A DNA stretch of 64,000 nt from assembly GCF_900177245.1 (NCBI RefSeq), contig NZ_FXBM01000001.1, positions 682,001 through 746,000 of the forward strand. The letters are read 5' to 3'. The DNA is from Rathayibacter oskolensis (lineage in GTDB: Bacteria; Actinomycetota; Actinomycetes; Actinomycetales; Microbacteriaceae). This document shows positions 3,262 through 64,000 of the stretch, in pieces (position 1 is the first letter of the stretch; each line of letters opens with the position of its first letter). The translations under genes were made by a program, and so were the position numbers. The notes under the pieces were generated by a model, which saw only the letters and a program-made list of their open reading frames with translations, ran no database searches and was not told the origin of the DNA.

Positions 3262-3409
3262 TTACCACGGGGCCTCGTGTCGCTTGCCGACCGGCTGACC
3301 GAGCAACCTGGGCATCCACCCTCGGCCCGTCGGCGTGGAGAGTTTCAGCGTCGAAGCGCCGGCGGCCTCCCAGCGGGCAGAGGTTCAGGTGATGGACATC
3401 AAGCAGAGC

Positions 3410-44223: not shown

Positions 44224-44227
44224 CCGC

Positions 44228-44827: not shown

Positions 44828-44914
44828 CCGAGCGACCCTAGCGGGACCCTCGCGGAGACGGCGCCCGCCTCCGGAGCCGGCGCGGCGAGGACGGCCCCGT
44901 GCGACGATGGCGCG

Positions 44915-45343: not shown

Positions 45344-45432
45344 GTCGCCGTTCCCGGCCCGTCCGGCGCATCGGATCCGCGCCCCTCCGCGTCGCTACGG
45401 CCTTTCGGATGTACCCGGTTTAGGGTTGCCGT

Positions 45433-49269: not shown

Positions 49270-49270
49270 C

Positions 49271-49474: not shown

Positions 49475-49542
49475 CGGTCCGCCGAGGCTGCAGGCGGCCG
49501 ACCGGCGCCGGCCGCCTCGCTCGTCTTCGTCGTGCAGGCGAC

Positions 49543-50028: not shown

Positions 50029-50149
50029 GCGCCGACCCTAGCGGCCGCCCGCCACGAGGGACGTCACCGGCAGGTGGGTCTCGAGACCCGTCTCCCTTCG
50101 AGAGGCGACCGGAAGCGTCGGAGGGCGACCTCCCGAAGGAGCAGGCGCC

Positions 50150-50177
50150 GTCCGAAACGCGTGCCAGCGTTTCGGAC
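50150..50177. terminator. Hairpin with perfect 11-bp stem
   Basis: GTCCGAAACGC and GCGTTTCGGAC pair perfectly around a 6-base loop, in the gap between the GNAT and mscL genes (both minus strand). It could be an upstream regulatory stem or part of a double terminator. Confidence 0.5.
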
Positions 50178-50231
50178 GCACCGTCCGCACCCCGCTCTGC
50201 AGAACCCGACCATCCCCGAGAGCCGACCGCG

Positions 50232-50260
50232 GTTCTTCCTCGCCGCAGGCGAGGAAGAAC
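50232..50260 (-). terminator. Strong intrinsic terminator after mscL
   Basis: Perfect 13-bp stem GTTCTTCCTCGCC / GGCGAGGAAGAAC with a 3-base loop, 9 bases beyond the mscL stop at 50269. Confidence 0.8.
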
Positions 50261-50268
50261 AGAACGAT

Positions 50269-50721
50269 TCAGTCCACGTGCTTGCCGGAGTTGGCGGTGG
50301 TGGCCGTGCCGCCGTTCGCGAGGAGGTCGCGGATGTCGGCGAGGAGCTCGAGCTCGGTCGGGGCCTTGTCCTCGGCGGCCGGCGCGTCGTCCATCTTCTT
50401 CTTGAAAGCCGCGTTCTTGAGGTGGTTGATCGGCACGACGAAGGCGAAGTAGAGCACGAAGGCGACGATCACGAACTGGATGAGAGCCGAGATCACGGCG
50501 CCGTACGCGATGACGGTCGCGTCCTCTGCGCCCGTGCCCTCGCGGACGACCCAGCTCAGAGCCGAGAGGGACGACGCGTCGAACAGCAGCCCGATGATCG
50601 GGTTGAAGATCCCGGTGACGATGGCGTTGACGATCGTGGTGAAGGCGGCGCCGATGACCACGGCGACGGCCAGGTCGATGACGTTGCCGCGAAGGATGAA
50701 CTCTTTGAAGCCGTTGATCAT
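50269..50721 (-). CDS. mscL: Large-conductance mechanosensitive channel
   Basis: 150-residue pentameric channel that opens under membrane tension to release solutes during hypo-osmotic shock. The N-terminal amphipathic helix and TM1 are MINGFKEFILRGNVIDLAVA, VVIGAAFTTIVNAIVTGIFN and PIIGLLFD. TM2 is YGAVISALIQFVIVAFVLYF. The charged cytoplasmic bundle ends the protein (ELELLADIRDLLANGGTA). The ATG at 50721 is the universal MscL start. It lies in the actinobacterial mscL - fmdB - cyclo-ligase run on the minus strand. Confidence 0.95.
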   Translation of the reverse strand: MINGFKEFILRGNVIDLAVAVVIGAAFTTIVNAIVTGIFNPIIGLLFDASSLSALSWVVREGTGAEDATVIAYGAVISALIQFVIVAFVLYFAFVVPINHLKNAAFKKKMDDAPAAEDKAPTELELLADIRDLLANGGTATTANSGKHVD

Positions 50722-50768
50722 GATCGGTTCCGTTTCTGCCGGCGGGCGGAGGTGGTGCGCGGAGTCGG

Positions 50769-51164
50769 TCAGCTCCCGGAGGAGGAGGACCCGGAGGAGG
50801 AGGACCCGGAGGACGACGACCCGGACGACGACGACCCGGAGGCGGACGACGACCCGGAGGATCCCGAGGACGATCCGGACCCGCCGCTCCCCGCGCCGGT
50901 CGCGGCCGGCTTCGCCGCGCCTCCCGCGGAGTCGCCCGACTTCGCTCCGTCGCCCGAACCCGCTCCGGCACCCGACGACTCCTTCGAGGAGCGCGAGTCG
51001 GTGCGGTAGAAGCCCGAGCCGTTGAACGTGACACCCACGGCGCTGAAGACCTTGCGGAGCGCCCCCTGGCAGCTCGGGCACTCGGTCAGGGTGTCGTCGG
51101 TGAACTTCTGCTGGATGTCGAAGGCGTTCCCGCACTGGGTGCAGCGGTAGGAGTAGGTGGGCAC
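50769..51164 (-). CDS. FmdB-type zinc-ribbon protein with Ser/Gly-rich tail
   Basis: 131-residue protein. The N-terminal zinc ribbon (about 1-42) has the two Cys pairs RCTQCGNAF and ECPSCQGAL; the conserved VTFNGSGFYRTDSRSSK follows. Residues about 67-131 are almost only Gly, Ser and Ala (SSSSGSSSSGSSSSGS repeats at the end), encoded by a GGA/GGAC-type DNA repeat at about 50770-50880. Similar serine-rich proteins occur beside mscL and the cyclo-ligase gene in other Actinobacteria, where they may act as regulators. Confidence 0.85.
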   Translation of the reverse strand: MPTYSYRCTQCGNAFDIQQKFTDDTLTECPSCQGALRKVFSAVGVTFNGSGFYRTDSRSSKESSGAGAGSGDGAKSGDSAGGAAKPAATGAGSGGSGSSSGSSGSSSASGSSSSGSSSSGSSSSGSSSSGS

Positions 51165-51209
51165 AGGGGGCTCCTCGGGAGGACGGTCGTGGTGAGGTGA
51201 GAGGGTGGG

Positions 51210-51794
51210 TCAGCGGCGGAGGTCGACGACGCCGGAGGGAGTCACGACTCCGTCGACGGCCTGGTCGTGCACTTCGCTCGGCACCCGGTCGACGAACTCG
51301 CTGTCGAAGACGACGGCGTACACCGGCGGGCACTTCTCCATCGAGCCCAGCGTCTTGTCGAAGTAGCCGCGGCCCCAGCCCATCCGCATGCCGCGGCGGT
51401 CGACGGTTGCGGCGGGGACGATGATGAGGTCGACGTCGTTGATCGCGATCGGACCGAGCAGCTTGCCCACCGGCTCGGGCATGCCGAAGAGGCCCTGCGT
51501 CTCGGTGTGCCCGTCGCCGACGGCCCAGTCGAGCAGGCCGTCCTGGCGCGAGATGGGGAAGAGCACGCGGATCCCGTGGCTCTCGGCCCAGCCCAGGAAC
51601 GGCCGGGTGTTCGGCTCGTCGGGCGCCGAGAGGTAGCACGCGATCGAGCGGGCACCGGAGGCGGTGGCCAGGTCGATGAGGTGGTCGGTGATGCGGGCGG
51701 CGGCCTGCTCGCGCGCCGTCGTGGTCTGGTTGCGTCGGCGTTCGCGCAGCTCCGCGCGGAGCGCGCGCTTCTCGTGCGGGATGTCGGCGGGCAT
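51210..51794 (-). CDS. 5-formyltetrahydrofolate cyclo-ligase
   Basis: 194-residue enzyme that converts 5-formyl-THF to 5,10-methenyl-THF using ATP, returning the folate to one-carbon metabolism. The N-terminal KRALRAELRERRRNQ, the substrate-site region ARSIACYLSAPDEPNTRPFL and the ATP/Mg-binding MGWGRGYFDKTLGSMEKCPP are diagnostic. The length is normal. Its position beside the FmdB-like gene and divergent from galU matches the order in other Actinobacteria. Confidence 0.92.
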   Translation of the reverse strand: MPADIPHEKRALRAELRERRRNQTTTAREQAAARITDHLIDLATASGARSIACYLSAPDEPNTRPFLGWAESHGIRVLFPISRQDGLLDWAVGDGHTETQGLFGMPEPVGKLLGPIAINDVDLIIVPAATVDRRGMRMGWGRGYFDKTLGSMEKCPPVYAVVFDSEFVDRVPSEVHDQAVDGVVTPSGVVDLRR

Positions 51795-51955
51795 GCGCTC
51801 AGTCTAGATCGGGGCCGGGCGGCGCCTCCGCGGGCCTTGCGGGACGCCGCGGTGACCCGCGACGCGACCCGCAGAGAGACGGGGTGCCCTCCAGCGCGCT
51901 CCCGAGGGGACGGGGGAAACATCCGCGACCACCGGCTCCGCTACGATGACGCCCC

Positions 51956-52846
51956 ATGGGCACTCGAATCCGCAAAGCCGTCATCCCCGCCGCCGGTCTC
52001 GGCACCCGGTTCCTGCCGGCGACCAAGGCCATCCCGAAGGAGATGCTCCCCGTCGTCGACAAGCCCGCGATCCAGTACGTGGTCGAGGAGGCGGCGGACG
52101 CCGGTCTCCAGGACGTCCTCGTCATCATCGGGCGCAACAAGAACGCTCTCGCCAACCACTTCGACTCGGTCCCCGAGCTCGAGCACAATCTGGCCAAGAA
52201 GCTGGACGACGCCAAGCTCGCCCACGTCAAGTACGCGAGCGACCTCGCCGACGTGCACTTCGTGCGTCAGGGCGAGCCGAAGGGCCTCGGCCACGCCGTC
52301 TCGCGCGCTCAGCGCCACGTCGGCGACGAGCCGTTCGCCGTCCTCCTCGGTGACGACCTCATCGATGCGCGCGACCCGCTGCTGACCCGCATGATCGACG
52401 TCGCCGAGCAGCGCGACACCACGGTCGTCGCCCTGCTCGAGGTCGACCCCGACCAGATCCACCTCTACGGCTGCGCCGCGGTCGAGGCGACCGACGAGGA
52501 CGACGTGGTGCGCATCACCGGTCTCGTCGAGAAGCCCTCGAAGGAGGACGCCCCGTCGAATCTCGCCATCATCGGCCGCTACGTCCTGAAGCCCGACGTC
52601 TTCGGCGTCCTCGAGGAGACCGCTCCCGGCAAGGGCGGGGAGATCCAGCTGACGGACGCGCTCGAGCGCATGGCGCAGGATCCGGCCGAGTTCGGCGGCG
52701 TCTACGGCGTCGTCTTCCGCGGACGTCGCTACGACACGGGCGACAAGCTCGACTACATCAAGGCGATCGTGCAGCTCGCCTCCGACCGCGACGACCTCGG
52801 GGTCGACCTCAAGCCCTGGCTCAAGGACTTCGCCGCGACCCTCTGA
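51956..52846 (+). CDS. galU: UTP-glucose-1-phosphate uridylyltransferase
   Basis: 296-residue enzyme making UDP-glucose from UTP and glucose-1-phosphate for cell-envelope glycans and trehalose. The nucleotidyltransferase signature is VIPAAGLGTRFLPATKAIPK (positions about 8-28). VVDKPAIQYVVEEA, FVRQGEPKGLGHAV, VLLGDDLIDARDPLL, IVEKPS-type FGVLEETAPGKGGEIQL and YDTGDKLDYIKAIV are further family blocks. Divergent from the cyclo-ligase gene and followed by a strong terminator. Confidence 0.95.
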   Translation: MGTRIRKAVIPAAGLGTRFLPATKAIPKEMLPVVDKPAIQYVVEEAADAGLQDVLVIIGRNKNALANHFDSVPELEHNLAKKLDDAKLAHVKYASDLADVHFVRQGEPKGLGHAVSRAQRHVGDEPFAVLLGDDLIDARDPLLTRMIDVAEQRDTTVVALLEVDPDQIHLYGCAAVEATDEDDVVRITGLVEKPSKEDAPSNLAIIGRYVLKPDVFGVLEETAPGKGGEIQLTDALERMAQDPAEFGGVYGVVFRGRRYDTGDKLDYIKAIVQLASDRDDLGVDLKPWLKDFAATL

Positions 52847-52859
52847 GCTCCGCGCCTCA

Positions 52860-52907
52860 CGAGAACGGACGGGATCCCTGCCAGGGCGGGGATCCCGTCC
52901 GTTCTCG
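52860..52907 (+). terminator. Strong intrinsic terminator after galU
   Basis: Perfect 19-bp stem CGAGAACGGACGGGATCCC / GGGATCCCGTCCGTTCTCG with a 10-base loop, 13 bases after the galU stop. Confidence 0.85.
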
Positions 52908-52982
52908 CGTGCTCCGACGAACCGCTTCCGGCGCCGGAGTCCAGTCCTCTTGACAGGATCGCTCGCGCAGTAGGGTCGGGGC

Positions 52983-53708
52983 ATGCCGTTGCCGATACCG
53001 ACGCTCTCCGAGGGTCGTGTCACCATCCGCCCGATCCGGGTGAGGGACGCCCGTCCGCTCGAGCGCGAACTCATCGCCAACCGCGCGTGGCTGCGGCAGT
53101 GGGAGGCGTCCGACCCCCGCGGTGGAGCGGCGTTCGACGTGCGGGCGAGCATCCGCGCCCTGCAGCAGAACGCGCGGGCCGGCGGCGGCGCGCCCTTCCT
53201 CGTGGAGTGGGACGGCGAGCTCGCCGGGCAGCTGAACGTGTCGAACATCGGGTACGGCTCGCTCTCCTCCGGTTCGATCGGCTACTGGGTCTCCGAGCGC
53301 TATGCCGGCCGTGGCATCACTCCGATCGCGGTGGCCCTCGCGACCGACCACGCCTTCTTCGACCTGGGGCTGCACCGGATCGAGATCTGCATCCGACCCG
53401 AGAACCGTCCGAGCCTGCGCGTCGTCGAGAAGCTGGGCTTCCGCTACGAGGGGCTGCGGCGCCGGTTCATCCACATCAACGGCGACTGGCGCGACCACTT
53501 CTGCTTCGCCCTCGTGGCGGAGGAGGTGCCCCGCGGCGTCCTCCGCCGCTACCTCGACGGCCAGGTGCCGAGCGAGGTCGGCGTGCCCACCGACGCCGAC
53601 CTGCGCGCCTCCCGGCGCTCTGGCCTGTCCGGGCCGCCCGACGGCGCGGGTATCCCCTCGACGGGGGCCCGGCTGATCCGCGATCCGTACGGACACACCT
53701 ACCCGTAA
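52983..53708 (+). CDS. RimJ/RimL-type GNAT acetyltransferase
   Basis: 241-residue N-acetyltransferase, related to those acetylating the N-terminal Ala of ribosomal protein S5 or other proteins. Motif A is YWVSERYAGRGITPIAVALA, motif B is IEICIRPENRPSLRVVEKLG, and FRYEGLRRRFIHINGDWRDH is the RimJ/L-type end of the fold. A C-terminal extension of about 45 residues is longer than in RimL itself. Synteny with galU and the sepX-like gene matches the mycobacterial rimJ position. Confidence 0.85.
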   Translation: MPLPIPTLSEGRVTIRPIRVRDARPLERELIANRAWLRQWEASDPRGGAAFDVRASIRALQQNARAGGGAPFLVEWDGELAGQLNVSNIGYGSLSSGSIGYWVSERYAGRGITPIAVALATDHAFFDLGLHRIEICIRPENRPSLRVVEKLGFRYEGLRRRFIHINGDWRDHFCFALVAEEVPRGVLRRYLDGQVPSEVGVPTDADLRASRRSGLSGPPDGAGIPSTGARLIRDPYGHTYP

Positions 53709-53747
53709 TGACGGACGGGGGAGCCGCCTGCTCCTAGCGTTGGTCGC

Positions 53748-54707
53748 ATGAGCAGCGACTGGTTGGGCGGGGGCGTCGTCTGGGCGCTCGCGGCCGTTCT
53801 CTGGGTCGCCTACCTCATCCCCACGTGGGTGCGCCGCCGGTCGTACAACGCGACCGAGCGCAACGCGGTGAGGCTGCAGCAGACGCTGCGCATCCTCGCC
53901 GAGACCGCTGAGGTGCCCGAGCACGTGCGTGCGGAGGCGACGGCCCGGGAGGTCGCGCTGCAGCAGCGTCGACTCCGGGTGACCGAGACACGACAACGAG
54001 CCGAAGAGAAGGCACAGGCGATGGAGCTGGCACAGGCGGAGAAGGCGGCGCGCGAAGCGCTGCGGCAGGCGACAGCGAGCACGCGGCGGAGCATGCAGAC
54101 CGGCCGGAGCGCCCTGCGCTGGCGGCAGGGAGCGGCCCTCACGGTGCTGATCGGACTCGTCGCCGCGGTCGTCGGGCTCGTGATGCTGCCCTTCGGCGGC
54201 ACCGGCGCGGTCCCGCTGGTGGGGGCGCTCGTCCTCGCGGCCGGCCTCGGGACGCTCATCGTCCTCGCACCCGGTCGTCGGCGTCAGGCCGCTCCGGCTG
54301 CGGTCGCGACCGACACGGCCGAGGTGGCGCGTCGCCGCGCCGAGGTCTTCGAGGCCGAGCTGGCCGAGGAGGCCGTCGCCGACGACGAGGTGCCCGCCGC
54401 CGAGTCGCCCAGCTGGACCCCGCAGCCGCTGCCGAAGCCCCTCTACCTGTCGCGCGGCACCGTCGCCGCCAGCGCCATGGCCTCGATCGACGCGGTCGAG
54501 CGCCTGCGCGCGGCGGCAGCGGAGGCGGAGCTCGCCCAGCGCGCGGCCGCGGCCGCTCCCGAGGTCGCCCCGATCCGCACCCCCAAGGCCACCGCCCCGG
54601 CGCCCGAGGCGCCCCGTCCGTCGTCGCGCTTCGCGTCGATGGGCGTCGTCGAGGGCGTCGACGCGATCGACCTCGACCAGGCGCTGCAGCGCCGCCGCGG
54701 GGCCTGA
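53748..54707 (+). CDS. SepX/GlpR-like membrane protein
   Basis: 319-residue membrane protein. An N-terminal helix (about 7-27, GGVVWALAAVLWVAYLIPTW) is followed by a charged coiled-coil segment (about 60-115, RLRVTETRQRAEEKAQAMEL). Two helices follow (about 125-180, GAALTVLIGLVAAVVGLVML and ALVLAAGLGTLIVLA), then a disordered Ala/Pro-rich cytoplasmic tail. In other Actinobacteria the gene next to galU and rimJ encodes SepX/GlpR, a division-site membrane protein that cooperates with FtsZ anchoring. The assignment is by architecture and synteny, not by residue-level motif. Confidence 0.7.
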   Translation: MSSDWLGGGVVWALAAVLWVAYLIPTWVRRRSYNATERNAVRLQQTLRILAETAEVPEHVRAEATAREVALQQRRLRVTETRQRAEEKAQAMELAQAEKAAREALRQATASTRRSMQTGRSALRWRQGAALTVLIGLVAAVVGLVMLPFGGTGAVPLVGALVLAAGLGTLIVLAPGRRRQAAPAAVATDTAEVARRRAEVFEAELAEEAVADDEVPAAESPSWTPQPLPKPLYLSRGTVAASAMASIDAVERLRAAAAEAELAQRAAAAAPEVAPIRTPKATAPAPEAPRPSSRFASMGVVEGVDAIDLDQALQRRRGA

Positions 54708-54782
54708 CCGCCAGTCGGGTGCGCGTCTCGTCGCGTGCTAGTGTTGACGAGTTGTTCGGGCCGGTGACGGCTCGGAAGGCAC

Positions 54783-54858
54783 GGGTCCGTGGCGCAGTTG
54801 GTAGCGCGCTTCGTTCGCAATGAAGAGGTCAGGGGTTCGAATCCCCTCGGATCCACCA
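54783..54858 (+). tRNA. tRNA-Ala (CGC)
   Basis: Complete 76-base tRNA with encoded CCA. The acceptor stem GGGTCCG/CGGATCC has one G-U pair. The D arm has GCGCAGTTGGTAGCGC, the anticodon stem CTTCG/TGAAG holds the loop TTCGCAA with anticodon CGC, and the T arm is AGGGGTTCGAATCCCCT. It reads GCG codons. A terminator and a tandem repeat follow directly. Confidence 0.93.
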
Positions 54859-54867
54859 CGTTCTCAC

Positions 54868-54907
54868 AACACAGAAGGCCCGCTCGAGAGAGCGGGCCTT
54901 CTGTGTT
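54868..54907 (+). terminator. Strong terminator after tRNA-Ala
   Basis: Perfect 18-bp stem AACACAGAAGGCCCGCTC / GAGCGGGCCTTCTGTGTT with the 4-base loop GAGA, 9 bases after the tRNA. The right arm merges into a 17-base tandem repeat. Confidence 0.88.
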
Positions 54908-54984
54908 GTTCGGGTGTCTGTGTTCTTCGGGTGTCTGTGTTCTTCGGGTGTCTGTGTTCCTCGAGTGCTTGTGTTCCTCGGTTC
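54900..54984. repeat. 17-base tandem repeat, about five units
   Basis: Units of the form TCTGTGTTCTTCGGGTG are repeated head to tail: two are identical, one differs by one base, and the last two drift (CTCGAGTG, then TTGTGTTCCTCGGTTC). The first unit contains the 3' arm of the terminator, so the array seems to have grown from it. No spacers are present. Confidence 0.8.
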
Positions 54985-55049
54985 CCGAGTGCGTGCCGCA
55001 CCGGCCTCCGCCCCGCCCCCCGCTCAGCGTGACCGGCCGTCGATGCCGA

Positions 55050-55080
55050 GTGCCCGCCCTCCGGAGTGGAGGACGGGCAC
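55050..55080 (-). terminator. Terminator of the xylanase gene
   Basis: GTGCCCGCCCTCC and GGAGGACGGGCAC pair with one mismatch around a 5-base loop, 43 bases beyond the xylanase stop at 55123. Confidence 0.65.
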
Positions 55081-55122
55081 CCGGCCACTCGGGGCGCCGA
55101 CGTCACCGCCGACGCGCCGCGG

Positions 55123-57078
55123 TCACCTCCTCGAGACGATCACGTCGAACGTCGACGTGCGCGTGTTGCCCGCCGCATCGGTCGCCGTGCACTCGACCGT
55201 GGTCGTGCCGATCGGGAACAGGCGCCTGTTCGCCGGGTCGCACTGCACGGGGACCGGCCCGTCGAGGGTGTCGATCGCCGAGGGCGTCGGATAGCTCACC
55301 GTCGTCCCGTTCTTCTTGTTCGAGGAGACCCTGACGTCGGACTGGTCCGCGATCCGCGGTGCCAGCACATCGGCGGGCCGGGTCGGCAGCTGCGCCGGGT
55401 CGACGATGCCCCAGTACGCCGGGGCGGCCTGGAGGTCGTCGTCGAAGGGCAGCGGCTGCTCCCAGGGGCGCGCGATGGGCCACGTCCGCAGCCAGGTGCG
55501 CGCATTGCTGATGCCCCAGAAGGTGACGGAGTCGATCGAGTCGCTCCGCTCGGTCAGCATGTCGAAGAGGTCGCGGTAGTAGTAGCCGACCTCGGCCGCC
55601 GCGTCCTCGTCGTTCGCGAAGGCCGGCGAGTAGGGAACGACCGGCGCACCGCTGACGTCCGCGCCCGCGTTCTCGGTCGAGGCGTTGACGTCGAGCTCGG
55701 TGATCGCCTGGAGGAGGTCGGGGTCGATCGCGTCGACCGCTCGGATCGACTCCTCGAGCCACTCGACCGGGCGTGCGACATCGACGTGCGCCTGGTGGCC
55801 CACTCCGTCGATCGGCACGTTCCGCTTCTTCAGTGCCGAGACGAGCTCGACGTAGTCGGCGCGCTTCTCGGGCATCTCGGTGTTGTAGTCGTTGATGAAG
55901 AGCTCTGCCTCCGGGAAGTAGTAGTCGGCCAGGCGGAAGGCCGCGTCGACGTACTTCTCGCCCAGCACCTGGAACCAGCGGCTGTCGCGCATGTCGTGCG
56001 GGTTCGCGGTGTCGCCGTCGGCGATCGTCTCGTTCACGACGTCCCAGGCCCACACGGGGCTGTCCCCGTCGGGGTAGCGCTCGTCGAGGTGATCGGCGAT
56101 GCCCTTGATGTGCGCGTTCATGCGCTTGAGGAGGAGCACCTGGTCGGCACGGCTGTTCGTGAGCGGTCGCGTCCCGTCCATGAAGAACCACTCCGGGGTC
56201 TGCGAGTGCCACGCGAGGACGTGCCCGTAGACCTCGAGGTCGTTGGCGTCGGCGAAGTCGAGCAGCTGGTCGAACTGGGTGAACGTGAACTGTCCCTCCA
56301 CGGGCTGGACGCTCTCGGGCTTGCCCGCGTTCTCGGGGGTGACGGCGTTGTAGTGCTTGGTGAGCAGCTCCGCGGCGGTGCCGACGGTCTCGCGGGCATC
56401 GATGGCGACGCCCACGTGCTCGATGCCGTCGGCGCCCAGGACGTCCTTCAGTGCCGGCAGCTCGCTCTGGATCGGCACCTCGGCGACGGGAGCCAGGGCG
56501 AAGTCGTCGAGCGCGAAGTCGACGCCCGCCGGGCCCTCGACATAGACCTGCACGCGGTCGGCGGCGGCGCCGAGCGTGTAGGTGCCGGTGAGCTCGGTCC
56601 AGCCGTCCGCCGTGACCTCCGCGGCGGCGCCGGCTACGCCCTCGTAGGCGCTGCCTCCGCCGTTGTCGCGCTGCACCGAGACCTTCAGTGAGGAGGGGGA
56701 GGGGCCGGTCGTCAGCTTCGCCCAGACCGAGACCTGCACGGCGACGCCGACCGCCAGCTGCGGGGTGACGTCGAGCGCCGCGCCGTGCCAGGGCTGGGTG
56801 CGGCCGGTGACGGAGAGGCTCCCTCCGCCGGTGCGGGCGTCGGCGCTCGGGGCGATCGCGACACCGTCGCCGCGAGGGGTCCAGCCCTCGGTGCCGGTCT
56901 CGAAGCCGATCGAGACGGTCGGTGCGGAGGCGGTGGTCGAGCCGCCCTCCTCGAGGGCGGACGAGGCGGCGGGCCGTGACGGCTCCGCTTCTGCGCCCTG
57001 CGCGATCGGGGCGAGCAGTGTGCCCGCGAGGGTCATCACTCCGATCGCCGTGACGGTCGTGCGGATCAGTCTGTTCAT
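55123..57078 (-). CDS. Secreted endo-1,4-beta-xylanase, GH10, with CBM and HYR domains
   Basis: 651-residue exported hydrolase that cuts xylan. The signal peptide is about residues 1-29 (TVTAIGVMTLAGTLLAPIAQ). A CBM4/9-type binding domain follows (about 55-205, SIGFETGTEGWTPRGDGVAI). Then comes a GH10 TIM barrel (about 215-565) with the acid/base Glu350 in WDVVNETIADG and the nucleophile Glu461 in ITELDVN. A HYR/beta-sandwich ends the protein (about 590-651, GTTTVECTATDAAGNTRTST). ATG at 57078 gives a correct signal peptide. Likely regulated through GTTTCGA boxes upstream. Confidence 0.92.
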   Translation of the reverse strand: MNRLIRTTVTAIGVMTLAGTLLAPIAQGAEAEPSRPAASSALEEGGSTTASAPTVSIGFETGTEGWTPRGDGVAIAPSADARTGGGSLSVTGRTQPWHGAALDVTPQLAVGVAVQVSVWAKLTTGPSPSSLKVSVQRDNGGGSAYEGVAGAAAEVTADGWTELTGTYTLGAAADRVQVYVEGPAGVDFALDDFALAPVAEVPIQSELPALKDVLGADGIEHVGVAIDARETVGTAAELLTKHYNAVTPENAGKPESVQPVEGQFTFTQFDQLLDFADANDLEVYGHVLAWHSQTPEWFFMDGTRPLTNSRADQVLLLKRMNAHIKGIADHLDERYPDGDSPVWAWDVVNETIADGDTANPHDMRDSRWFQVLGEKYVDAAFRLADYYFPEAELFINDYNTEMPEKRADYVELVSALKKRNVPIDGVGHQAHVDVARPVEWLEESIRAVDAIDPDLLQAITELDVNASTENAGADVSGAPVVPYSPAFANDEDAAAEVGYYYRDLFDMLTERSDSIDSVTFWGISNARTWLRTWPIARPWEQPLPFDDDLQAAPAYWGIVDPAQLPTRPADVLAPRIADQSDVRVSSNKKNGTTVSYPTPSAIDTLDGPVPVQCDPANRRLFPIGTTTVECTATDAAGNTRTSTFDVIVSRR

Positions 57079-57188
57079 GGTGCTCCCTGTACATCGTCGT
57101 ACCGGCGTCGGCGGGAGCCCGAAAGGGATCGAGCTCTCCGCTGAGCTGTCGTGTCCTGTTCCGCAACCCTGCGAGCGCGCCAGCAGGC

Positions 57189-57217
57189 TGTCAAAAGGTT
57201 TCGATGAGGAGTTTCGA
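57189..57217 (-). promoter_or_regulatory. Xylanase promoter with duplicated GTTTCGA boxes
   Basis: On the minus strand TTGACA (57189-57194) is a -35 candidate about 110 bases upstream of the xylanase start. Just upstream of it are two direct TCGAAAC boxes (57198-57204 and 57211-57217 on the plus strand as GTTTCGA), spaced 13 bases. LacI-type xylan regulators in other Actinobacteria use CGAAA-containing sites, so these may be operator half-sites. Confidence 0.45.
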
Positions 57218-57236
57218 AGGTTCCGTGCCTCTCCGC

Positions 57237-57278
57237 GCGACGGAGGCCCTGGATCGTGGGATCCGGGGCCTCCGTCGC
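57237..57278 (-). terminator. Terminator of the JAMM-E1 operon
   Basis: About 19-bp stem GCGACGGAGGCCCTGGATC / GATCCGGGGCCTCCGTCGC with one G-T pair and a 4-base loop, 24 bases beyond the stop of the JAMM-E1 gene at 57302. Confidence 0.85.
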
Positions 57279-57301
57279 GGTGCACCTCGTCGAGCGCCGG
57301 G

Positions 57302-59014
57302 TCAGCCGGGACTGTCGGACCGACCGCTCGGCTCGAGCTCGGCGCGAGCGTGCGCGACCATCTCCGCGAGGGCCGGGCCCGAGGCGCCCAGCGGACCCAC
57401 CCGCCCCTCGACCGGACCGCAGACCGCGCAGTCGGCGGACCGCTCGACGGCGATCCACACGCTCTGCGGGGCGAGCTGGTGGCCGGCGTCGCCGAAGAGC
57501 TCGGGGAAGAAATCCCATCGAGGCGTGGTCGCGATCATCGCGAGAGTCTGACGGCGGACGACCGCGTCCGCGACGAGGTCGCCCACCTTCGTCCCAGGGC
57601 CGGTCAGGACCCCGAGTGCGACGAGACCCGCCATGGAGGCGACGACCTGGATCGACGCGCCCAGCCCCGGCTCCGCGGTGAGCCGACCGCCGAGCCCGTA
57701 GTCGGCCGGGGGTCTGAGGGTGGCGAGGGAGGCGCCGTCGCCGAGCGAGCAGGCGAGGCAGGCGGTCCCCGCCGCAGGCACAGCGACGACGATCTCTCCC
57801 GCCTCCGCCCCTCGGTAGAGAGCACACGACACCATCGGAACGCCCGCGCGGTACGCGAAGTGCGCGAGCCGGAGCTGCTCCTTCATGTCGTCGGTCGCAC
57901 CGACGACGAGGTCGGCGTCGACGATCGACCCGGCGATGTCGAGGGCGCCGAGAGTCTCGCTCCACGTCTCGATGTGCACTGCCGGGTCGATGAGCCGCAG
58001 CCGGTCGGCGAGCGCCTCCGTCTTGAGCCGCCCGAGATCGTCGCTGGAGTAGACCGTTCGTGCCAGATTGGGCGCCTCGATCGTCTCGGGATCGATGAGT
58101 CGCAACCGCCCGACGCCCGCTCGCACGAGGTCCTCGGCCATCCGGCTGCCGACCGAGCCCAGGCCGGCGACGACCGCCGTGCGGTCGGAGAGGTCGCCGA
58201 CCAGGGGTCCGACCCGCTCCCTGCTCCCGGAGGCGGACTGCCCCAGGGCGGAGCGCAGCTGAGCGGTCAGTTGCTGCTCCGGCCGCCGGGACGGATCCCA
58301 GCGGGACGGATGCACGATCTCCGAGTCCGCCGCCCACTCGACGATCACCGGACCGGCGGTCGGATAGCCGCTCGGAATCAGGACGGCGATCGCATCGACG
58401 ACGGGGATCGCGAGGCAGGTCTGTCCGCGCCACTCGACGCTGACCGGCAGAGCGCCGAGAACAGCCTCCTGGTCGCGCAACCACTCGCGGGTGGACACAG
58501 CGCTGACGACGGCCAGGCCCACCTCCGCGAAGGCGGTCTCGAGAGGGACCACCTCGCCGGCGAGGGGACGCACGACGGTCTCGCCGTCGACGACACCGAC
58601 CACGTGCAGCGACATGCGGTGCGTGTCCCCGATCGGGAGGTGCTCGACCTGGGTCGGCGACCCCTCGGTGACGATCGCGACGATCATCGAGGAGATGTGC
58701 GGATTCAGATCCAGCATGGTCCTCGTCGAGCGGATGTCGGTCGCCGAAGGGTTGACGACCCCGCGGGGGTGGCTGTGCACCGTCCCCATCCAGGTCGCTG
58801 CGCCCGCGCTCTCGAGGCCCGGTACGACCTGGCCCAGTTCACTGCTGATGTCCCAGTGCGATCCCGAGTAGGAACCGGCGTCATCGAGCAGAGCCAGCGA
58901 CACGATTCCTCCGAAACCGAGCAGCGCGGCTCCCTGCTCCGGCGGCACCTGGGCGAGATGCGTGTGGATGGCGGTGAGCACCCCATCCGTCATCCGGATG
59001 CGGGGCGCGCTCAC
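57302..59014 (-). CDS. JAMM/MPN+ protease fused to a ThiF/E1-type adenylyltransferase
   Basis: 570-residue fusion. Residues about 8-150 are a JAMM isopeptidase with every zinc-site residue: Glu26, and His80, His82, Ser90 and Asp93 in HSHPRGVVNPSATD. Residues about 180-255 contain IPSGYPTAGP, like the YP-x-P block of E2/RWD folds, but no catalytic Cys follows. Residues about 275-510 are an E1/ThiF Rossmann domain: GLGSVG (284-289), Asn316 and Arg319, Lys331 and GATDD. Zinc pairs Cys419/Cys422 and Cys529/Cys532 are also present. It would adenylate and process an ubiquitin-like modifier. GTG start overlaps the upstream stop (GTGA); ATG at 58993 is an alternative. Confidence 0.85.
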   Translation of the reverse strand: MSAPRIRMTDGVLTAIHTHLAQVPPEQGAALLGFGGIVSLALLDDAGSYSGSHWDISSELGQVVPGLESAGAATWMGTVHSHPRGVVNPSATDIRSTRTMLDLNPHISSMIVAIVTEGSPTQVEHLPIGDTHRMSLHVVGVVDGETVVRPLAGEVVPLETAFAEVGLAVVSAVSTREWLRDQEAVLGALPVSVEWRGQTCLAIPVVDAIAVLIPSGYPTAGPVIVEWAADSEIVHPSRWDPSRRPEQQLTAQLRSALGQSASGSRERVGPLVGDLSDRTAVVAGLGSVGSRMAEDLVRAGVGRLRLIDPETIEAPNLARTVYSSDDLGRLKTEALADRLRLIDPAVHIETWSETLGALDIAGSIVDADLVVGATDDMKEQLRLAHFAYRAGVPMVSCALYRGAEAGEIVVAVPAAGTACLACSLGDGASLATLRPPADYGLGGRLTAEPGLGASIQVVASMAGLVALGVLTGPGTKVGDLVADAVVRRQTLAMIATTPRWDFFPELFGDAGHQLAPQSVWIAVERSADCAVCGPVEGRVGPLGASGPALAEMVAHARAELEPSGRSDSPG

Positions 59015-59934
59015 AGGGAGAACCCCGGATCGCGCCCGGCGAGCCGCGCCGACGTGTACGCGGTCCACTTCGCCGCGACTCCCCGGACCGCGGTCAACGA
59101 CTCGGCGGGTTCGCCTCCCGGTCCGCAGATGATCGTCACGGTCTCGGAACCGAACTTCTGCGGGATGAGATGGACCGAGTGCCCGAACGAGTCGTCCAGA
59201 TTCGGGAAGATCGGAATCAGATCCCACTTGTTCCGGCGGGAGGGGTTCTTGAACGTGAGGAATGTGAAGTGGCCGGTCTGCCAGGGCGCCTTGAGCGCGA
59301 ACTTCCAGGCGATGCTCCCGCTGGGACCCGGCACATCGGCCCACTCCTCGACGTTGTCCGGATCGAGGCGGCTGACCTCGTACGCCTCGTCGAGCAGCGA
59401 ACCCGCCATCCGCACCTCCGGAACCCTGCTGAGGTTCCGCGCCTCCGCCTCGCCCTTCCCGATCAGTGCGAGTCCGCCGCCGGGGGCGACGACGACCGTG
59501 TCGGAACCGACGCCTCCGCCCTCCTCGTTCTCGCGGATCCGGTGGATGATGCTTCCCCAATCCGAGCCGGCCGCCATCCGCTCCTCCGGGACGACGGACA
59601 CCGGCCGATCGACGCCGGATGCGGCGACGATCCGCAGGCTCCCGCCCGGGTCGACGACGACGAGCTCTCCTCGCGGCGAGTCTCCCGCGGACCCGGCGGC
59701 TGCCCCTGTCGCTGACCGCGGTGCGACGCGGGCTCTCGACACGTCGTCGTCCGACGCGGACGAGGGGTGCGTGCTCGTCCTCGTCGGCTTCTCGAGGGGC
59801 GGGGAAGCCGATGTCCCTGCCACCGCGTCACTGCCCGGCCGCTCGGTCGGGTCACTCGTCGTCGTCTCGTCCTCGACGGCGCGGTAGACGCCGTCGACTT
59901 CCTCGAACACGATCTCGGGTTGATTGTTCGTCAT
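59011..59934 (-). CDS. Protein of unknown family, possible E2-like C-terminal domain
   Basis: 307-residue protein coupled to the JAMM-E1 gene. Residues about 20-88 are disordered and polar, and about 88-165 form a beta-rich region with two copies of LVVVDPGGSLRIV / TVVVAPGGGLALI. The C-terminal about 110 residues contain SGSIAWKFALKAPW, HFTFLTFKNP, WDLIPIFPNLDDSFGHSVHL and VTIICGPGGEPAESL. Cys270 is the only cysteine in the whole protein and follows an H-rich segment, as the active Cys does in E2 enzymes. E2-like function is therefore a hypothesis; I cannot match the family directly. ATG at 59934 has a GAGGA site. Confidence 0.6.
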   Translation of the reverse strand: MTNNQPEIVFEEVDGVYRAVEDETTTSDPTERPGSDAVAGTSASPPLEKPTRTSTHPSSASDDDVSRARVAPRSATGAAAGSAGDSPRGELVVVDPGGSLRIVAASGVDRPVSVVPEERMAAGSDWGSIIHRIRENEEGGGVGSDTVVVAPGGGLALIGKGEAEARNLSRVPEVRMAGSLLDEAYEVSRLDPDNVEEWADVPGPSGSIAWKFALKAPWQTGHFTFLTFKNPSRRNKWDLIPIFPNLDDSFGHSVHLIPQKFGSETVTIICGPGGEPAESLTAVRGVAAKWTAYTSARLAGRDPGFSL

Positions 59935-60013
59935 GTCCTGCTCCTCAGGGGAAGGGTCGTCCGGCGGCAGCGTCGACTGCGTCGGTGGAGGGGATGGCGG
60001 TCTCGGGTGCCCA

Positions 60014-60955
60014 TCAGAGATCCCATCGGGCGATCTCGAAGACCGCCTCCTGGTCGCCGTGGGGTCCCGGCACGAGGATCGCGCCGATCAGGATCGGGTC
60101 GGACGCCAGTGCCTCGATGAGGGAGCCTCCGACGGCGGCGGCGCCCTCCGCCGTTCTCCGGAGACCGGCGACGACCTTCGCCGCGACACGGTCGATCCCG
60201 GTGACCGCTCTCTCGGGCCGTGCCCTGACGGTCCTGCTGATGAGCTCCTTCTCCCAGCCGGGGTTCTTCGTGAACCCCACGGGCAGCTGGTCGAACTTCG
60301 GGACTTCGTGGGCGATCAGCAAGCGGTCGAACTCGATCCCCGCGTCGCTCACCGCAGCGATCCGACGGCGCGCGTGGGCCGGGATGGCGAGGGTCCTCGC
60401 GCGGAAGGCGGGGTCGTCCTCGAGAGGGACGACCACCCAGTCCCAGATCTCGCGAGCCGGACGCCGCACGAGCACCGGCTCCACGGTGTAGGGGACGAGG
60501 CCGAGCGGCTGAACGAGCCCGGCAGCTCTGTGCTCGATCGACAGGACGCGATCGACGACCCGCGTCGTCGACGGTGGGCCGGACTCCGCCGTGCCGAGGT
60601 CCCCTCGCGTCGACATCCGCTTACCCGCCGCTGGACCAGCGGTGTCGGGGAGCCGACGCGCCGCGGGGCTCGCAGGGCGCGCAGGCGTCGTCGCGCGCTC
60701 GCGCGGCTCAGGCAGTGCCCGGGGGCGGATGAGCGCGTCCGGTGTCCGAGGAGTCCGTTCGTCTCGCATTCTCAGTCCTCTCGTCGCCCGCGCCCGCGCA
60801 TCGCGGTCTCGGTTCGTGGTGCGGTCTCGGTGTGCGGCCAGGTGTCGATGTCCGGCCGGGTCCGGGTGTGCGGTGCGGGTCTCGGAGGCGACCGAGGGTG
60901 CGCGGTCGCCGATGCGCAGACGGTGCGGGCCGGCCGCCGGGGAGGTGCTCCTCAT
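60014..60955 (-). CDS. Hypothetical protein in the JAMM-E1 operon, 313 aa
   Basis: I do not recognise this protein. The first about 130 residues are low-complexity and basic (Arg/Pro/Ala-rich). The folded part begins VLSIEHRAAGLVQPLGLVPY and includes AREIWDWVVVPLEDDPAFRA, AHEVPKFDQLPVGFTKNPGW, a helical stretch AVTGIDRVAAKVVAGLRRTA and a final SDPILIGAILVPGPHGDQEA. No membrane helix is seen. The ATG at 60955 overlaps the membrane-protein stop (ATGA); ATG at 60769, with a good AGAGGA site, would give a 251-residue protein lacking most of the disordered part. Confidence 0.6.
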   Translation of the reverse strand: MRSTSPAAGPHRLRIGDRAPSVASETRTAHPDPAGHRHLAAHRDRTTNRDRDARARATRGLRMRDERTPRTPDALIRPRALPEPRERATTPARPASPAARRLPDTAGPAAGKRMSTRGDLGTAESGPPSTTRVVDRVLSIEHRAAGLVQPLGLVPYTVEPVLVRRPAREIWDWVVVPLEDDPAFRARTLAIPAHARRRIAAVSDAGIEFDRLLIAHEVPKFDQLPVGFTKNPGWEKELISRTVRARPERAVTGIDRVAAKVVAGLRRTAEGAAAVGGSLIEALASDPILIGAILVPGPHGDQEAVFEIARWDL

Positions 60956-61524
60956 CCGGTGAGTGCGCCGAGGAGGACGGCGAAGACGAGAACGACGAAC
61001 AGCGCTCCCAGCAGAACGAGGACCGCGCAGCAGGCGAGGACGATGACCAGAGGGATCGTCAGCACCCCAGCCCCGACCATGACGACGTACGAGGCCGTGA
61101 CTTCGCGCTCCGTGAGGCGGTGCATCCAGCCGCTGCGCAGCGCCACTGCGAGTGCCAGGAGGGCGAGCACTGCGGCGAGCACCATCTGCAGGAAGGGCAC
61201 CGGGAAGTCCATCAGAGCGAGGGCGAAGGCCGCCGGGTCGGAGCCCGCGGTGGCGTCGAGCAGGAACGCGTGGGCCAGGGGATACCCGACCGCGTCCAGC
61301 AGCGTCACCGCGCTGGCCGTGCGCAGGACCGTCCTCGTGGTGCGCGACACCTCGACACGCACCCGACCGCCGGCATCGAGCACCTGGCGCAGCGTGGGTC
61401 CGCTGGGAGGAGCATGCCCCGCCCGAGGCCCAGTGGTCGCCTTCGCCGCGGCGGGCGCGGCTGCTGGACCGACGTTCCCTCCGACGGTGCTTCCGCCCTT
61501 GCGGAGGGGGCCGAGGAAGCTCAT
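60952..61524 (-). CDS. Multi-pass membrane protein of the VirD4-like operon
   Basis: 190-residue protein. After a polar Gly/Ala-rich N-terminus (about 1-60) there are hydrophobic helices at about 65-90 (ASAVTLLDAVGYPLAHAFLL), 100-122 (FLQMVLAAVLALLALAVALR) and 138-190, the last containing two helices (SYVVMVGAGVLTIPLVIVLA, then LVLLGALFVVLVFAVLLGAL). Its start overlaps the VirD4-like stop by ATGA and its stop overlaps the next start by ATGA. It probably anchors or shapes the membrane complex of the neighbouring ATPase. No family recognised. Confidence 0.7.
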   Translation of the reverse strand: MSFLGPLRKGGSTVGGNVGPAAAPAAAKATTGPRAGHAPPSGPTLRQVLDAGGRVRVEVSRTTRTVLRTASAVTLLDAVGYPLAHAFLLDATAGSDPAAFALALMDFPVPFLQMVLAAVLALLALAVALRSGWMHRLTEREVTASYVVMVGAGVLTIPLVIVLACCAVLVLLGALFVVLVFAVLLGALTG

Positions 61525-63008
61525 GCGCGTTCCGCCTCGACGAAGAAGGGGCGGCTGGACAGCTCGCGCGAGTGGACCATCGCCGGCCTCACGCCGAACG
61601 GCGGGTGCATGATCTCGCGCATTCCCAGAACAGGAGCGGTCGTCGTCGAGCGCGTGAAAGTCGTGCCGCCTCGGCTGCCCGGCGCTCGCGTCGACGAGGT
61701 GGCGAGGACGGGGTGCTCGCCCAGTCGCGCGGACACGACCCGCGCGGACGCATCGGACACGGAGCCGACGGTCACGAGCGTTCCGCAATTGCTGAGGATC
61801 GCCGTCCGCTCGTTCTCGTCCGCGAACTGGCCGACGTCCTGCATGGCCAGGATCACGGTGACGCCGGCAGCTCGCGCGAGGCTCAGCACGGTCGCGATGT
61901 CGATGCGCTCCGCGAGTTGCGGAGCCTCGTCCAGCACGAGCAGCAGCGGCACACCCGGTGCGGTCGAACCGAACCGCTCGTACGCGTGGTAGAGCAGGCG
62001 GCTGAAGAACAACGCGGAGAGCATCTGAGCCATCTGCCCGTCCCTGACGGGCGCGACGACCGTGAACAGCTGCGGTTCGGAAAGGACCTCGTCGACGAAG
62101 AACTCCGGTCGAGTGCTCACCCGCGCCAGAGTCGGCCGGGCCAGGACGTCCAGCCGGCCGATGACACCCGAGACCCGGCGGTCGAGATCGTCCGGACTAA
62201 GGCTGAGCATCGGACGCAGCCGCTCCGCCCCCGCCGAGCCGGGATAGCGCTGGATCGTCGAGGCGAAGACCTCCCTGTCTCGGAGCATCGCCAGGAGCGA
62301 CTGGGTCGTGATCCGGCCCCGACGGGGGGAGTCGCGCGCGAGCTCGAGGACTCCACGAAGCAACATCATGTCTTGATTGAAGAAGTAGGGGTCGGTGTTC
62401 GGAGGCGCCGAACGGCCCAGGATGCTGCCGACGGCGTTGTCGACATCGCCGTCATCGCTCAGCTCGGCGACCCAGTTCCAGCTCACCGATCGACTCGGAT
62501 CCCCGTAGTCGAGGGAGCGTGCTCTCACCCCGACCGCACGGCCTTCGCGGTCGACCTGCTCCCTGATCTCGCGGTGCAGGTCTCCGCGCACATCCACGGT
62601 AGCGACCGAGTACCCGGCGCGCAGTCCCGCGACGATCCACGGCACGAGGAAGCTCTGGGTCTTGCCACTCCCGGGCGGGCCGATGACGGCCGCATTGCGC
62701 TCCATAGCAGCCGCAGGCAGTGCTGTCCGGCCGAGGTACCCCCTGGTCGGGTGCAGGAAACGTCCGAGGGGGAACTCACCGTCCCGCAGGCCGGGCGGGA
62801 CGGATCCGATGCCGAGCACGCCGCGGTAGTCGTAGTAGCCGTCCGTGCCGCCGTCCATGGGCGGGGCGTCGCCCGGCCCGAGGACGCCGCGACGAGCGGC
62901 TCGTGACGAGAGCCCGGCGGCGATGCTCGTCGCGGCGTTCTCGGAGGCTCGGACCATCCCGGTCGCGACAGCGTGCGACGCGCGCCACACGGGTCCGATC
63001 CACGGCAT
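61521..63008 (-). CDS. VirD4/TraG-like coupling ATPase
   Basis: 495-residue ATPase of the VirD4/TraG/HerA-FtsK group, related to the hexameric pumps that deliver DNA or proteins to secretion channels. Walker A is GPPGSGKT (110-117), Walker B LVLDEA (357-362), and the VirD4-type Gln motif AMQDVGQFADENERT (about 388-401) follows. A PFGVRPAMVHSREL block ends the protein. The usual two N-terminal helices are absent; membrane docking may come from the 190-residue membrane protein it is coupled to. ATG at 63008 has a GAGAGGGGG site. First gene of the minus-strand operon. Confidence 0.85.
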   Translation of the reverse strand: MPWIGPVWRASHAVATGMVRASENAATSIAAGLSSRAARRGVLGPGDAPPMDGGTDGYYDYRGVLGIGSVPPGLRDGEFPLGRFLHPTRGYLGRTALPAAAMERNAAVIGPPGSGKTQSFLVPWIVAGLRAGYSVATVDVRGDLHREIREQVDREGRAVGVRARSLDYGDPSRSVSWNWVAELSDDGDVDNAVGSILGRSAPPNTDPYFFNQDMMLLRGVLELARDSPRRGRITTQSLLAMLRDREVFASTIQRYPGSAGAERLRPMLSLSPDDLDRRVSGVIGRLDVLARPTLARVSTRPEFFVDEVLSEPQLFTVVAPVRDGQMAQMLSALFFSRLLYHAYERFGSTAPGVPLLLVLDEAPQLAERIDIATVLSLARAAGVTVILAMQDVGQFADENERTAILSNCGTLVTVGSVSDASARVVSARLGEHPVLATSSTRAPGSRGGTTFTRSTTTAPVLGMREIMHPPFGVRPAMVHSRELSSRPFFVEAERA

Positions 63009-63060
63009 CAGCCGCCCCCTCTCGCCCTGGAGCCTGTCGCTGCACCCTCCAGTGGGATGT

Positions 63061-63091
63061 TTGACAGCGCCTCGTGCCGGCGTGCTATAAA
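63061..63091 (+). promoter_or_regulatory. Candidate sigma-70 promoter for the vWA gene
   Basis: TTGACA (63061-63066) and TATAAA (63086-63091, 19-base spacer) or GCTATA (17-base spacer) form a strong promoter-like pair in an AT-rich island. The divergent operon starts at 63008 on the other strand, so its promoter must overlap this region. Confidence 0.55.
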
Positions 63092-63173
63092 TGCAGCCTC
63101 TGATAAAGACGCAATGTCTCGATAGAGTCTCGCCGAGCAGTATGGCACACCGGCCGAGCGGGCACCACGAACT

Positions 63174-63233
63174 CTTCCAGCACCGACTCGCGGACACTCC
63201 GACCGGGTCGGAGAACCTTCCAGCATCGACTCG
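63174..63233. promoter_or_regulatory. Direct repeat - palindrome - direct repeat in the vWA leader
   Basis: CTTCCAGCACCGACTCG (63174-63190) and CTTCCAGCATCGACTCG (63217-63233) differ by one base. They flank the palindrome CCGACCGGGTCGG (63199-63211). The block ends 15 bases before the vWA start, in the untranslated leader, and may be a regulator-binding or RNA element. Confidence 0.45.
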
Positions 63234-63248
63234 AACGGGGACCAGCCC

Positions 63249-64000
63249 ATGGGCGAACTCAGCGACAAGTACTTCGTGATGCCCTTCTACATCGTCGTGG
63301 ACGTGTCGTACTCGATGGAGGAGAACGGCGGGATACGCGCGATGCCCCAGCTGGTGCCCGCGATCAGGACGGCGCTCGCGGAGAAGCCGCTCGTGCACGA
63401 CATCCTGAGGATCTCGATCCTCGAGTTCGCCGGCACGGCGAACGTGCTCGTGCCGATGAGCCGGCCCAACGAGCTCGGCTCCCCGGACTTCGCGGTCCGG
63501 GGCGACGGCACGAACTACGCCGCAGCGCTGGCGCTCCTGAAGGAGCGCATCATCGCCGACGTCGCGACCCTGAAGAGCCAGAATCTCGACGTCTACCGCC
63601 CCGCGGTCTTCTTCCTGACCGACGGCGAGCCCAACGTCGGTCCAGCCTGGGAGAAGGCCTTCGCCGAGCTCACCTACTTCGACCCCGCGACCGGCGCGGG
63701 ATTCAAGGCCTATCCGCTCTTCGTCCCGCTCGGAGTGGGTGCCGCGTCTCGGACCGTCCTCGGGCAGATGGCGTTCCCTCCTGACGTCTCCCGGCTCTAC
63801 ATGGCCGTCGATCCCGCCGCGGTTCAGGCGGCGATCATCGAAATGGCGAACGTGATGGCGCACACCACCGTCTCGAGCGGGAACACGGCCGTCGGCGCCC
63901 TGGGCTCCGGGGGGAGCGAGGAGCCTCAGCACGTCCTCCCGGACGAGCGCGACCTCGGTCCCGGCGTCACGGTCTCCGCCTCGCAGTACCAGGGTGGAAG
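63249..64000 (+). CDS. TerY-like von Willebrand A domain protein, cut by window end
   Basis: At least 250 residues are visible and the frame runs off the window. The metal-ion-dependent adhesion site (MIDAS) is intact: DVSYS with Asp18, Ser20 and Ser22 in FYIVVDVSYSM, a Thr in GDGTNYAAALALL, and the Asp in FFLTDGEPNVG. The order and the LPVYxxxDxSxSM-like start resemble TerY and other single-domain vWA proteins that pair with PP2C phosphatases and Ser/Thr kinases (TerY-P triads). It diverges from the VirD4-like/JAMM-E1 operon. Downstream genes are outside the window. Confidence 0.85.
   Translation, partial: MGELSDKYFVMPFYIVVDVSYSMEENGGIRAMPQLVPAIRTALAEKPLVHDILRISILEFAGTANVLVPMSRPNELGSPDFAVRGDGTNYAAALALLKERIIADVATLKSQNLDVYRPAVFFLTDGEPNVGPAWEKAFAELTYFDPATGAGFKAYPLFVPLGVGAASRTVLGQMAFPPDVSRLYMAVDPAAVQAAIIEMANVMAHTTVSSGNTAVGALGSGGSEEPQHVLPDERDLGPGVTVSASQYQGG

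Follow-up and report, generated by a model that had tools for sequence, protein, structure and literature searches.

A JAMM-E1 fusion protein with a probable E2-like partner next to a VirD4-type ATPase gene in Rathayibacter oskolensis

The stretch of DNA analysed here, referred to as the window, comprises 64,000 nucleotides of Rathayibacter oskolensis (contig NZ_FXBM01000001.1, positions 682,001 to 746,000), a member of a plant-associated genus. At its right end lies a cluster of six genes that encodes a fusion of a JAMM isopeptidase with an E1-type adenylating domain, a probable E2-like protein, a VirD4/TraG-type ATPase, a membrane protein, a protein of a family without match and a von Willebrand factor A (vWA) protein. 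The cluster appears to be a new variant, known from two instances, of the protein conjugation that operates in phage defence by the cyclic oligonucleotide-based antiphage signalling system (CBASS). The features are as follows.

57302..59014, minus strand: P0001, 570 aa, JAMM/JAB isopeptidase domain, middle region and E1/ThiF adenylating domain with CxxC...CxxC pairs
59011..59934, minus strand: P0002, 307 aa, probably a divergent E2-like protein; N-terminal hairpin motif present twice, single cysteine (C270) within an H..H...C...W arrangement
60014..60955, minus strand: P0003, at most 313 aa, family without match; the true start may be internal (Met113)
60952..61524, minus strand: P0004, 190 aa, membrane protein, C-terminus LTG
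61521..63008, minus strand: P0005, 495 aa, VirD4/TraG-type P-loop ATPase, C-terminus AERA
63009..63248: divergent intergenic region of 240 bases between the ATPase and vWA genes
63249..64000, plus strand: P0006, TerY-like vWA protein with intact metal-ion-dependent adhesion site (MIDAS) motifs; its open reading frame (ORF, 63249-63998) is open at the window end
54783..54858, plus strand: tRNA-Ala(cgc), left limit of the variable region

The five minus-strand genes overlap by exactly 4 bases at three junctions (61521-61524, 60952-60955 and 59011-59014), and a gap of 79 bases separates P0003 from P0002, just as an earlier note on this DNA had described. The likely start of P0005 is the ATG at 63008, which is preceded by GAGAGGGGG.

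P0001 matches the Pfam families ThiF (E = 1.7e-29) and Prok-JAB (E = 2.3e-5; 24.7 bits, just below the cut-off of 25), and contains the JAMM residues E26, H80, H82, S90 and D93 together with the E1 glycine loop GLGSVG. Judged by its sequence, P0001 thus joins a JAMM isopeptidase to an adenylating domain of the E1 type, as the earlier note proposed, and its motifs, including the E1 adenylation site, are intact. A single genome among 394 of the same class, that of the actinobacterium G724, gives a match to P0001 at E ≤ 1e-20, and this match is strong (7e-42). The gene order in G724 is Ser/Thr kinase (P0010), P0008, P0009, where P0009 is a JAMM-middle-E1 protein that is 34% identical to P0001 in the alignment, and where all five JAMM residues listed above and the nucleotide-site residues of the E1 domain are conserved between the two. 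A gene of the P0002/P0008 type therefore adjoins a JAMM-E1 gene in a second genome, and as read from sequence the E2-like/JAMM-E1 pair rests on these two instances. No relatives of P0003-P0006 were found on the 34-kb contig of G724 (L056; best E about 0.2, none at E ≤ 0.01), so that the six genes, which the earlier note had grouped together, lack comparative support as a conserved unit, since the sole relative shares just the pair.

A profile built from P0001 and P0009 has UBA5 (3guc_A, 2e-19) as its best match among solved structures and also matches the E1 part of Cap2 (7tsq_A, 4.7e-12), both within the best 60 of 75 matches; MccB and PaaA are matched as well. The PADLOC models PDLC00829 and PDLC00828, which fit the separate E1 of the Streptomyces plasmid CBASS operon L001 over its full length, rank first and third for P0001 and second and fifth for P0009. 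All four cysteines of P0009 lie within the two CxxC pairs, and the two further cysteines of P0001, C200 and C397, are missing from P0009. In the alignment, P0001, P0009 and the E1 proteins of L003 and L054 have no cysteine at the position occupied by one in the MoeB-like L041, a position that we take to be that of the catalytic cysteine of MoeB/ThiF; a YG.G stretch is found in this region in P0001, P0009 and the CBASS E1s. Since the usual cysteine is absent, the E1, if active, must hand the acyl-adenylate directly to another nucleophile, which would most simply be the cysteine of the E2-like protein. A sulfur-carrier role of the MoeB/ThiF type was considered and rejected, since the E1 is fused to a JAMM domain and probably has an E2-like partner.

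The similarity between P0002 and P0008 is seen over the full length, with a local score of 59 against 33.8 ± 5.2 for shuffled sequences (2 of 1000 shuffles as good) and a global score that none of 1000 shuffles reaches. P0002 has two copies of the hairpin motif found at the N-terminus of P0008, and each of three hairpin comparisons was equalled by 0 of 1000 shuffles, where the hairpin limits were set by eye and the several shuffle tests are uncorrected. For the C-terminal, E2-like parts the global score was reached by 1 of 1000 shuffles. P0008, which has no match in PADLOC or Pfam, resembles in turn the CBASS E2s of L001 and L002: the local scores were reached by 9 and 3 of 1000 shuffles, respectively, and those of its C-terminal part by 3 and 1. 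Furthermore, a profile comparison places C155 of P0008 on the E2 cysteine (E = 0.021, a single comparison). C270, the sole cysteine of P0002, sits inside the H..H...C...W arrangement, which arises in 2 of 5000 shuffles of P0002 and 14 of 5000 of P0008. P0002 is thus probably a divergent E2-like protein, as far as sequence comparison can tell. The earlier note had called P0002 and P0003 unfamiliar; indeed, none of Pfam, NCBIfam, PADLOC and PHROGs gives an accepted match for them or for P0004, while the probable E2-like nature of P0002 takes this protein out of that class and means that conjugation and deconjugation enzymes are probably present more fully than had been claimed.

The remaining products agree largely with the earlier descriptions. 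P0005, assigned there as a VirD4/TraG-like ATPase, matches T4SS-DNA_transf (9.2e-18) and TraG-D_C (4.5e-16) in Pfam, has intact Walker A and Walker B motifs, and further matches the CD1115 conjugation family, the PADLOC model mad8 (1.1e-10) and, weakly, VirB4; no solved structure is matched by sequence at E ≤ 0.001. It has no N-terminal hydrophobic segments or membrane anchor; hydrophobic segments sit instead in the next gene product, P0004, which has two long hydrophobic blocks (98-134 and 142-190). P0004 is hence a membrane protein as stated, whereas the four helices attributed to it are unproven, the blocks having room for two to four. The first 112 residues of P0003 (window 60620-60955) are rich in Arg, Pro and Ala, with a weak codon-position signal, and approximately this part may be non-coding; no relative of P0003 was found in the libraries and collections tried, whole genomes having been searched with P0001 alone. 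The divergent gene is TerY-like, as proposed: P0006 matches VWA_2 (3.5e-7) with intact DxSxS and TDG motifs, and among its plasmid relatives the vWA gene of L005 adjoins a PP2C gene and that of L006 is separated from a kinase gene by one unmatched gene. Three of 953 matched records, most of them from Klebsiella, were inspected, and the third, L007, is unannotated.

Several known systems share part of this gene set. One is the split variant of type II CBASS Cap2/Cap3, in which E2, E1 and JAMM have separate genes and which also combines E2-like, E1 and JAMM functions; its E1 has the YG.G stretch close to where the MoeB-type cysteine would lie, as does P0001, and its PADLOC models are among the best for P0001. 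The features of type II CBASS that are found here by sequence are the E1 adenylation site and the JAMM isopeptidase, whereas none of the six cluster proteins matches a CD-NTase cyclase or a SAVED effector. Unlike in the split operons, the JAMM domain here is fused to the E1, the E2-like protein is far diverged, and genes for a VirD4-like ATPase, a membrane protein and a vWA protein lie nearby. Operons of the split kind are found on Streptomyces plasmids at L001 8173-11478 and L003 5954-9259, both with JAMM and in the order cyclase-E2-E1-JAMM, and at L002 5915-8786, where no JAMM gene is annotated; their cyclases and E2s are annotated as hypothetical, and PADLOC names the E2 of L001 (PDLC00860, 6.9e-79).

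The type 6e systems of Iyer, Burroughs and Aravind (JAB-E1, tandem ubiquitin-like protein, inactive E2-like protein) likewise have an N-terminal JAB domain on the E1 and an adjacent E2-like gene, but differ in that the available sequence holds no convincing ubiquitin-like protein, tandem or otherwise, and that P0002 has a candidate catalytic cysteine. In the 6A or 6A-MBL systems, which encode an E2-E1-JAB triple fusion with a metallo-beta-lactamase, E1 and JAB also share one polypeptide, and P0001 has an NCBIfam match, far below cut-off, to the E1 part of 6A-MBL cap2_3; here, however, the domain order is opposite, the E2-like gene is separate and no metallo-beta-lactamase is seen. The VirD4/TraG coupling proteins share with P0005 the Walker A/B motifs and the TraG-D_C motor domain but not the membrane anchor. 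P0006 has in common with the TerY triad of vWA, PP2C and kinase a vWA domain with MIDAS motifs, and the two plasmid relatives described above lie near PP2C or kinase genes; any such partner genes of P0006 would be situated past the window end. The vWA-MoxR FtsH ternary systems with ubiquitin-like conjugation, as portrayed in part of Kaur 2020 (PMC7159879), combine vWA with E1, E2 and JAB and occur in actinobacteria; the MoxR and FtsH-type AAA+ ATPases, RING protein and ubiquitin-like-E2 fusion that the same part describes are not seen here.

The earlier note expected tagging by a ubiquitin-like protein. A screen for small ORFs of 50-160 aa ending in Gly, which would miss longer, fused or non-Gly-ending modifiers, returned nine ORFs, six of them from window 54.9-64.0 kb and the others from L056 9.0-14.2 kb. 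In eight, the codon composition is non-coding (G+C at the second codon position at least as high as at the first). The ninth (54914-55294, plus strand) is 2 kb away from the cluster and overlaps, on the opposite strand, the 3' end of the xylanase gene. Neither this part of the window nor the surroundings of the relative's pair thus gave a convincing ubiquitin-like candidate in the screen, and the expectation is not borne out in the visible sequence. This does not by itself end the conjugation idea, because CBASS-type enzymes can conjugate the C-terminus of a partner without any ubiquitin-like protein; the conjugated cyclases terminate in Gly or Ala, according to those parts of Jenson et al. 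that were consulted for both points (PMC10097602). In agreement with this rule, all three cyclases from the Streptomyces plasmid operons have PQG as their last residues. Within the cluster P0005 ends in Ala and P0004 and P0001 end in Gly, and the kinase of the relative also ends in Gly. We regard P0005 as a likelier substrate than P0004, since the Gly of P0004 directly follows a hydrophobic stretch.

On this basis we propose, with a probability of roughly 0.37, that P0002 and P0001 work together as in CBASS to conjugate a partner protein by its C-terminus, the partner perhaps being the ATPase, with phosphorylation as input. The E1 domain would adenylate the partner's C-terminus; the acyl group, for want of the usual E1 cysteine, would pass to the single cysteine of P0002, which would join the partner to its target, and the JAMM domain, carried by the same polypeptide as the E1, would take the partner off again. 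A ubiquitin-like protein would not be required, the activated C-terminus being probably that of a neighbour, as is the case for the CD-NTase in type II CBASS, and the most plausible neighbour would be the VirD4-like ATPase with its soluble tail and Ala end. Conjugation may lock or release a complex of P0005 with P0004, and the input may be phosphorylation, represented by the vWA module here and the kinase in the relative. The E2 activity of P0002, the identity of the conjugated protein, the regulation and a role in conflict or defence are what we infer. The fully specified form, in which a cysteine-less, isopeptidase-fused E1 activates the C-terminus of a VirD4-type ATPase, the E2-like cysteine moves it onto a membrane partner, and tagging and untagging gate a membrane motor under phosphorylation control, is quite improbable as a whole.

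A number of observations weigh against the proposal. C-terminal Gly or Ala is probably common in high-GC proteomes, so that these ends are a lead only, and Gly is also the last residue of P0001 and P0004. In the sole relative the pair is accompanied neither by P0003 nor by the ATPase, the membrane protein or the vWA protein, and the best PADLOC model for P0009 is the fused E1-E2 model PDLC00836. The link from P0002 to known E2s is made in two steps, by way of P0008. In its first step, much of the signal comes from the N-terminal hairpin, the local score of the C-terminal, E2-like parts alone is not significant (reached by 68 of 1000 shuffles), and tblastn with P0002 in L056 did not find P0008 at E ≤ 0.9. 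Compared with the same CBASS E2s, P0002 has no direct similarity, whether whole (316 and 701 of 1000 shuffles) or in its C-terminal part (976 and 769), and its cysteine is displaced in the alignment. The H..H...C...W pattern was defined post hoc from the sequences and is missing from the L002 E2, and the C-terminal region of P0002 gave no usable predicted fold (pLDDT, a predicted confidence score, of 37).

A serious competitor, in our estimate somewhat unlikely, is that the variable region holds two unrelated units, the P0002-P0001 pair and an ATPase-membrane-P0003 operon with a TerY-type vWA module. The 79-base gap, with a GAGGAG of its own before the P0002 start, falls exactly at the P0003/P0002 boundary, and in G724 the pair adjoins a kinase gene on a contig from which relatives of P0003-P0006 are absent; this absence is, however, weak evidence with one relative only, and the five genes are on the same strand and tightly packed within 5.7 kb. 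Unlikely, in our judgement, is a classical ubiquitin-like system in which a beta-grasp modifier encoded after position 64000 or elsewhere in the genome is handled by the E1, E2 and JAMM functions. Tandem ubiquitin-like operons with JAB-E1 fusions are known (Iyer 2006, type 6e, in the part consulted of PMC1779556), and a JAMM-E1 locus of tandem ubiquitin-like appearance occurs in the same family (L054), but none of the nine screened Gly-ending ORFs is convincing and the CBASS E1 models fit the E1 well.

That the locus is what remains of an integrative conjugative element, or belongs to one, with P0005 as the coupling protein of a type IV secretion system and the rest as cargo, deserves little credence. 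The matches of P0005 to T4SS-DNA_transf/TraG-D_C and to the CD1115 family and the strain-variable setting behind a tRNA gene would fit, but P0005 lacks an N-terminal hydrophobic segment, the window contains no exact repeat of the tRNA's final 16-45 bases, and no relaxase, VirB4 or integrase family is matched, apart from the weak VirB4 match of P0005, among the seven genes of 55.1-64.0 kb (the six and a xylanase gene; other ORFs were unsearched). Very improbable is a peptide-modifying E1 for a small natural product with the JAMM domain as maturation protease. MccB and PaaA, which are not known to have the E1 cysteine, are among the structures matched by the P0001-P0009 profile, whereas the best such match is UBA5, the JAMM domain and probable E2-like partner point to isopeptide chemistry, and no precursor gene was recognised, a negative on which only the Gly-ending small-ORF screen bears.

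If the conjugation proposal is correct, bacterial ubiquitin-type enzymes act on partners beyond CD-NTases and small ubiquitin-like proteins, and tagging of the ATPase would be a further case, beside the CBASS cyclase, of ubiquitin-type chemistry without ubiquitin. P0009, an E1 without any cysteine outside its CxxC pairs, would be a clean test case for direct transfer from the adenylate to an E2. The kinase in one locus and the vWA protein in the other point to a possible coupling of phosphorylation with conjugation in actinobacteria.

G724 has the only relative of the pair found in the sequences searched, and the genome sampling is small (822 genome searches including repeats, with sets that share genome G001 and, for the genus, others). 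P0001 was not found in 15 genomes of the genus at E ≤ 1e-12, and gave one match at E ≤ 1e-20 in 398 genomes of the family, L054, a different JAMM-E1 locus that is not counted in the P0001 family; the family and class scans scored no more than three candidates per genome, among the matches listed. L054 (G256 contig 7, 1117-3349) encodes a JAMM-E1 protein and, by eye, an apparent tandem ubiquitin-like protein (2873-3349) and an apparent E2-like protein. P0001 had no relative in the genome contig collection (27 pattern stretches), and neither P0001, the P0001-P0009 alignment, P0005, P0006, P0008, P0009 nor P0007 (P0003 minus its first 85 residues) had one among viral contigs. Plasmids gave no match for P0002, P0004 and P0008 (E limit 0.01) or P0007 (0.1). 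P0001 matched 429 plasmid records, none covering 80% of the query; the best 40 match in the E1 part, one starting in the middle region, and the best 5 of 20 phage records likewise match in the E1 part. A search of the genome contigs with a conserved neighbour (45433-49269) yielded 32 loci; of the genomes of 15 of these, 11 match P0001 at E ≤ 1e-3, and at no one of the 13 places does the match extend to the JAMM domain. No published account of E1/JAMM enzymes with a VirD4-like ATPase was found in titles and abstract openings covering part of the literature.

The conserved neighbour encodes a 1278-aa protein that many Microbacteriaceae possess and that matches AAA_11 and REase_MTES_1575 weakly, with scores below cut-off. 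Its best segment shares 97% identity with Rathayibacter sp. Leaf185, and for seven more Rathayibacter loci the identity is 93-96%, which identifies the window as part of a Rathayibacter chromosome. A blastn comparison of 44001-64000 with ten loci from Rathayibacter or close relatives shows that matches longer than 150 bases end at about 54.91 kb, just after tRNA-Ala(cgc); two of the ten (L009, L030) stop before the tRNA and are hence uninformative, and past it the sequence differs in the other eight, and in seven of these so do the likely ORFs. As judged from these alignments, the cluster is strain-variable. The G+C content of the cluster, 0.67-0.72 per kb, resembles that of 45-55 kb (0.69-0.75), so that any donor would be a high-GC bacterium. 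Window 54859-54910 and the same site in L010-L015, L021 and L026 form a variable spot behind tRNA-Ala(cgc) across the Rathayibacter group. The tRNA 3' end was considered as an attachment site and dropped, the window having no exact repeat and the G+C-rich hairpin after the tRNA resembling that in five of the eight relatives. Within the same strain-variable stretch, at window 55123-57285, lies the gene of a GH10 xylanase with CBM4_9 and HYR domains.

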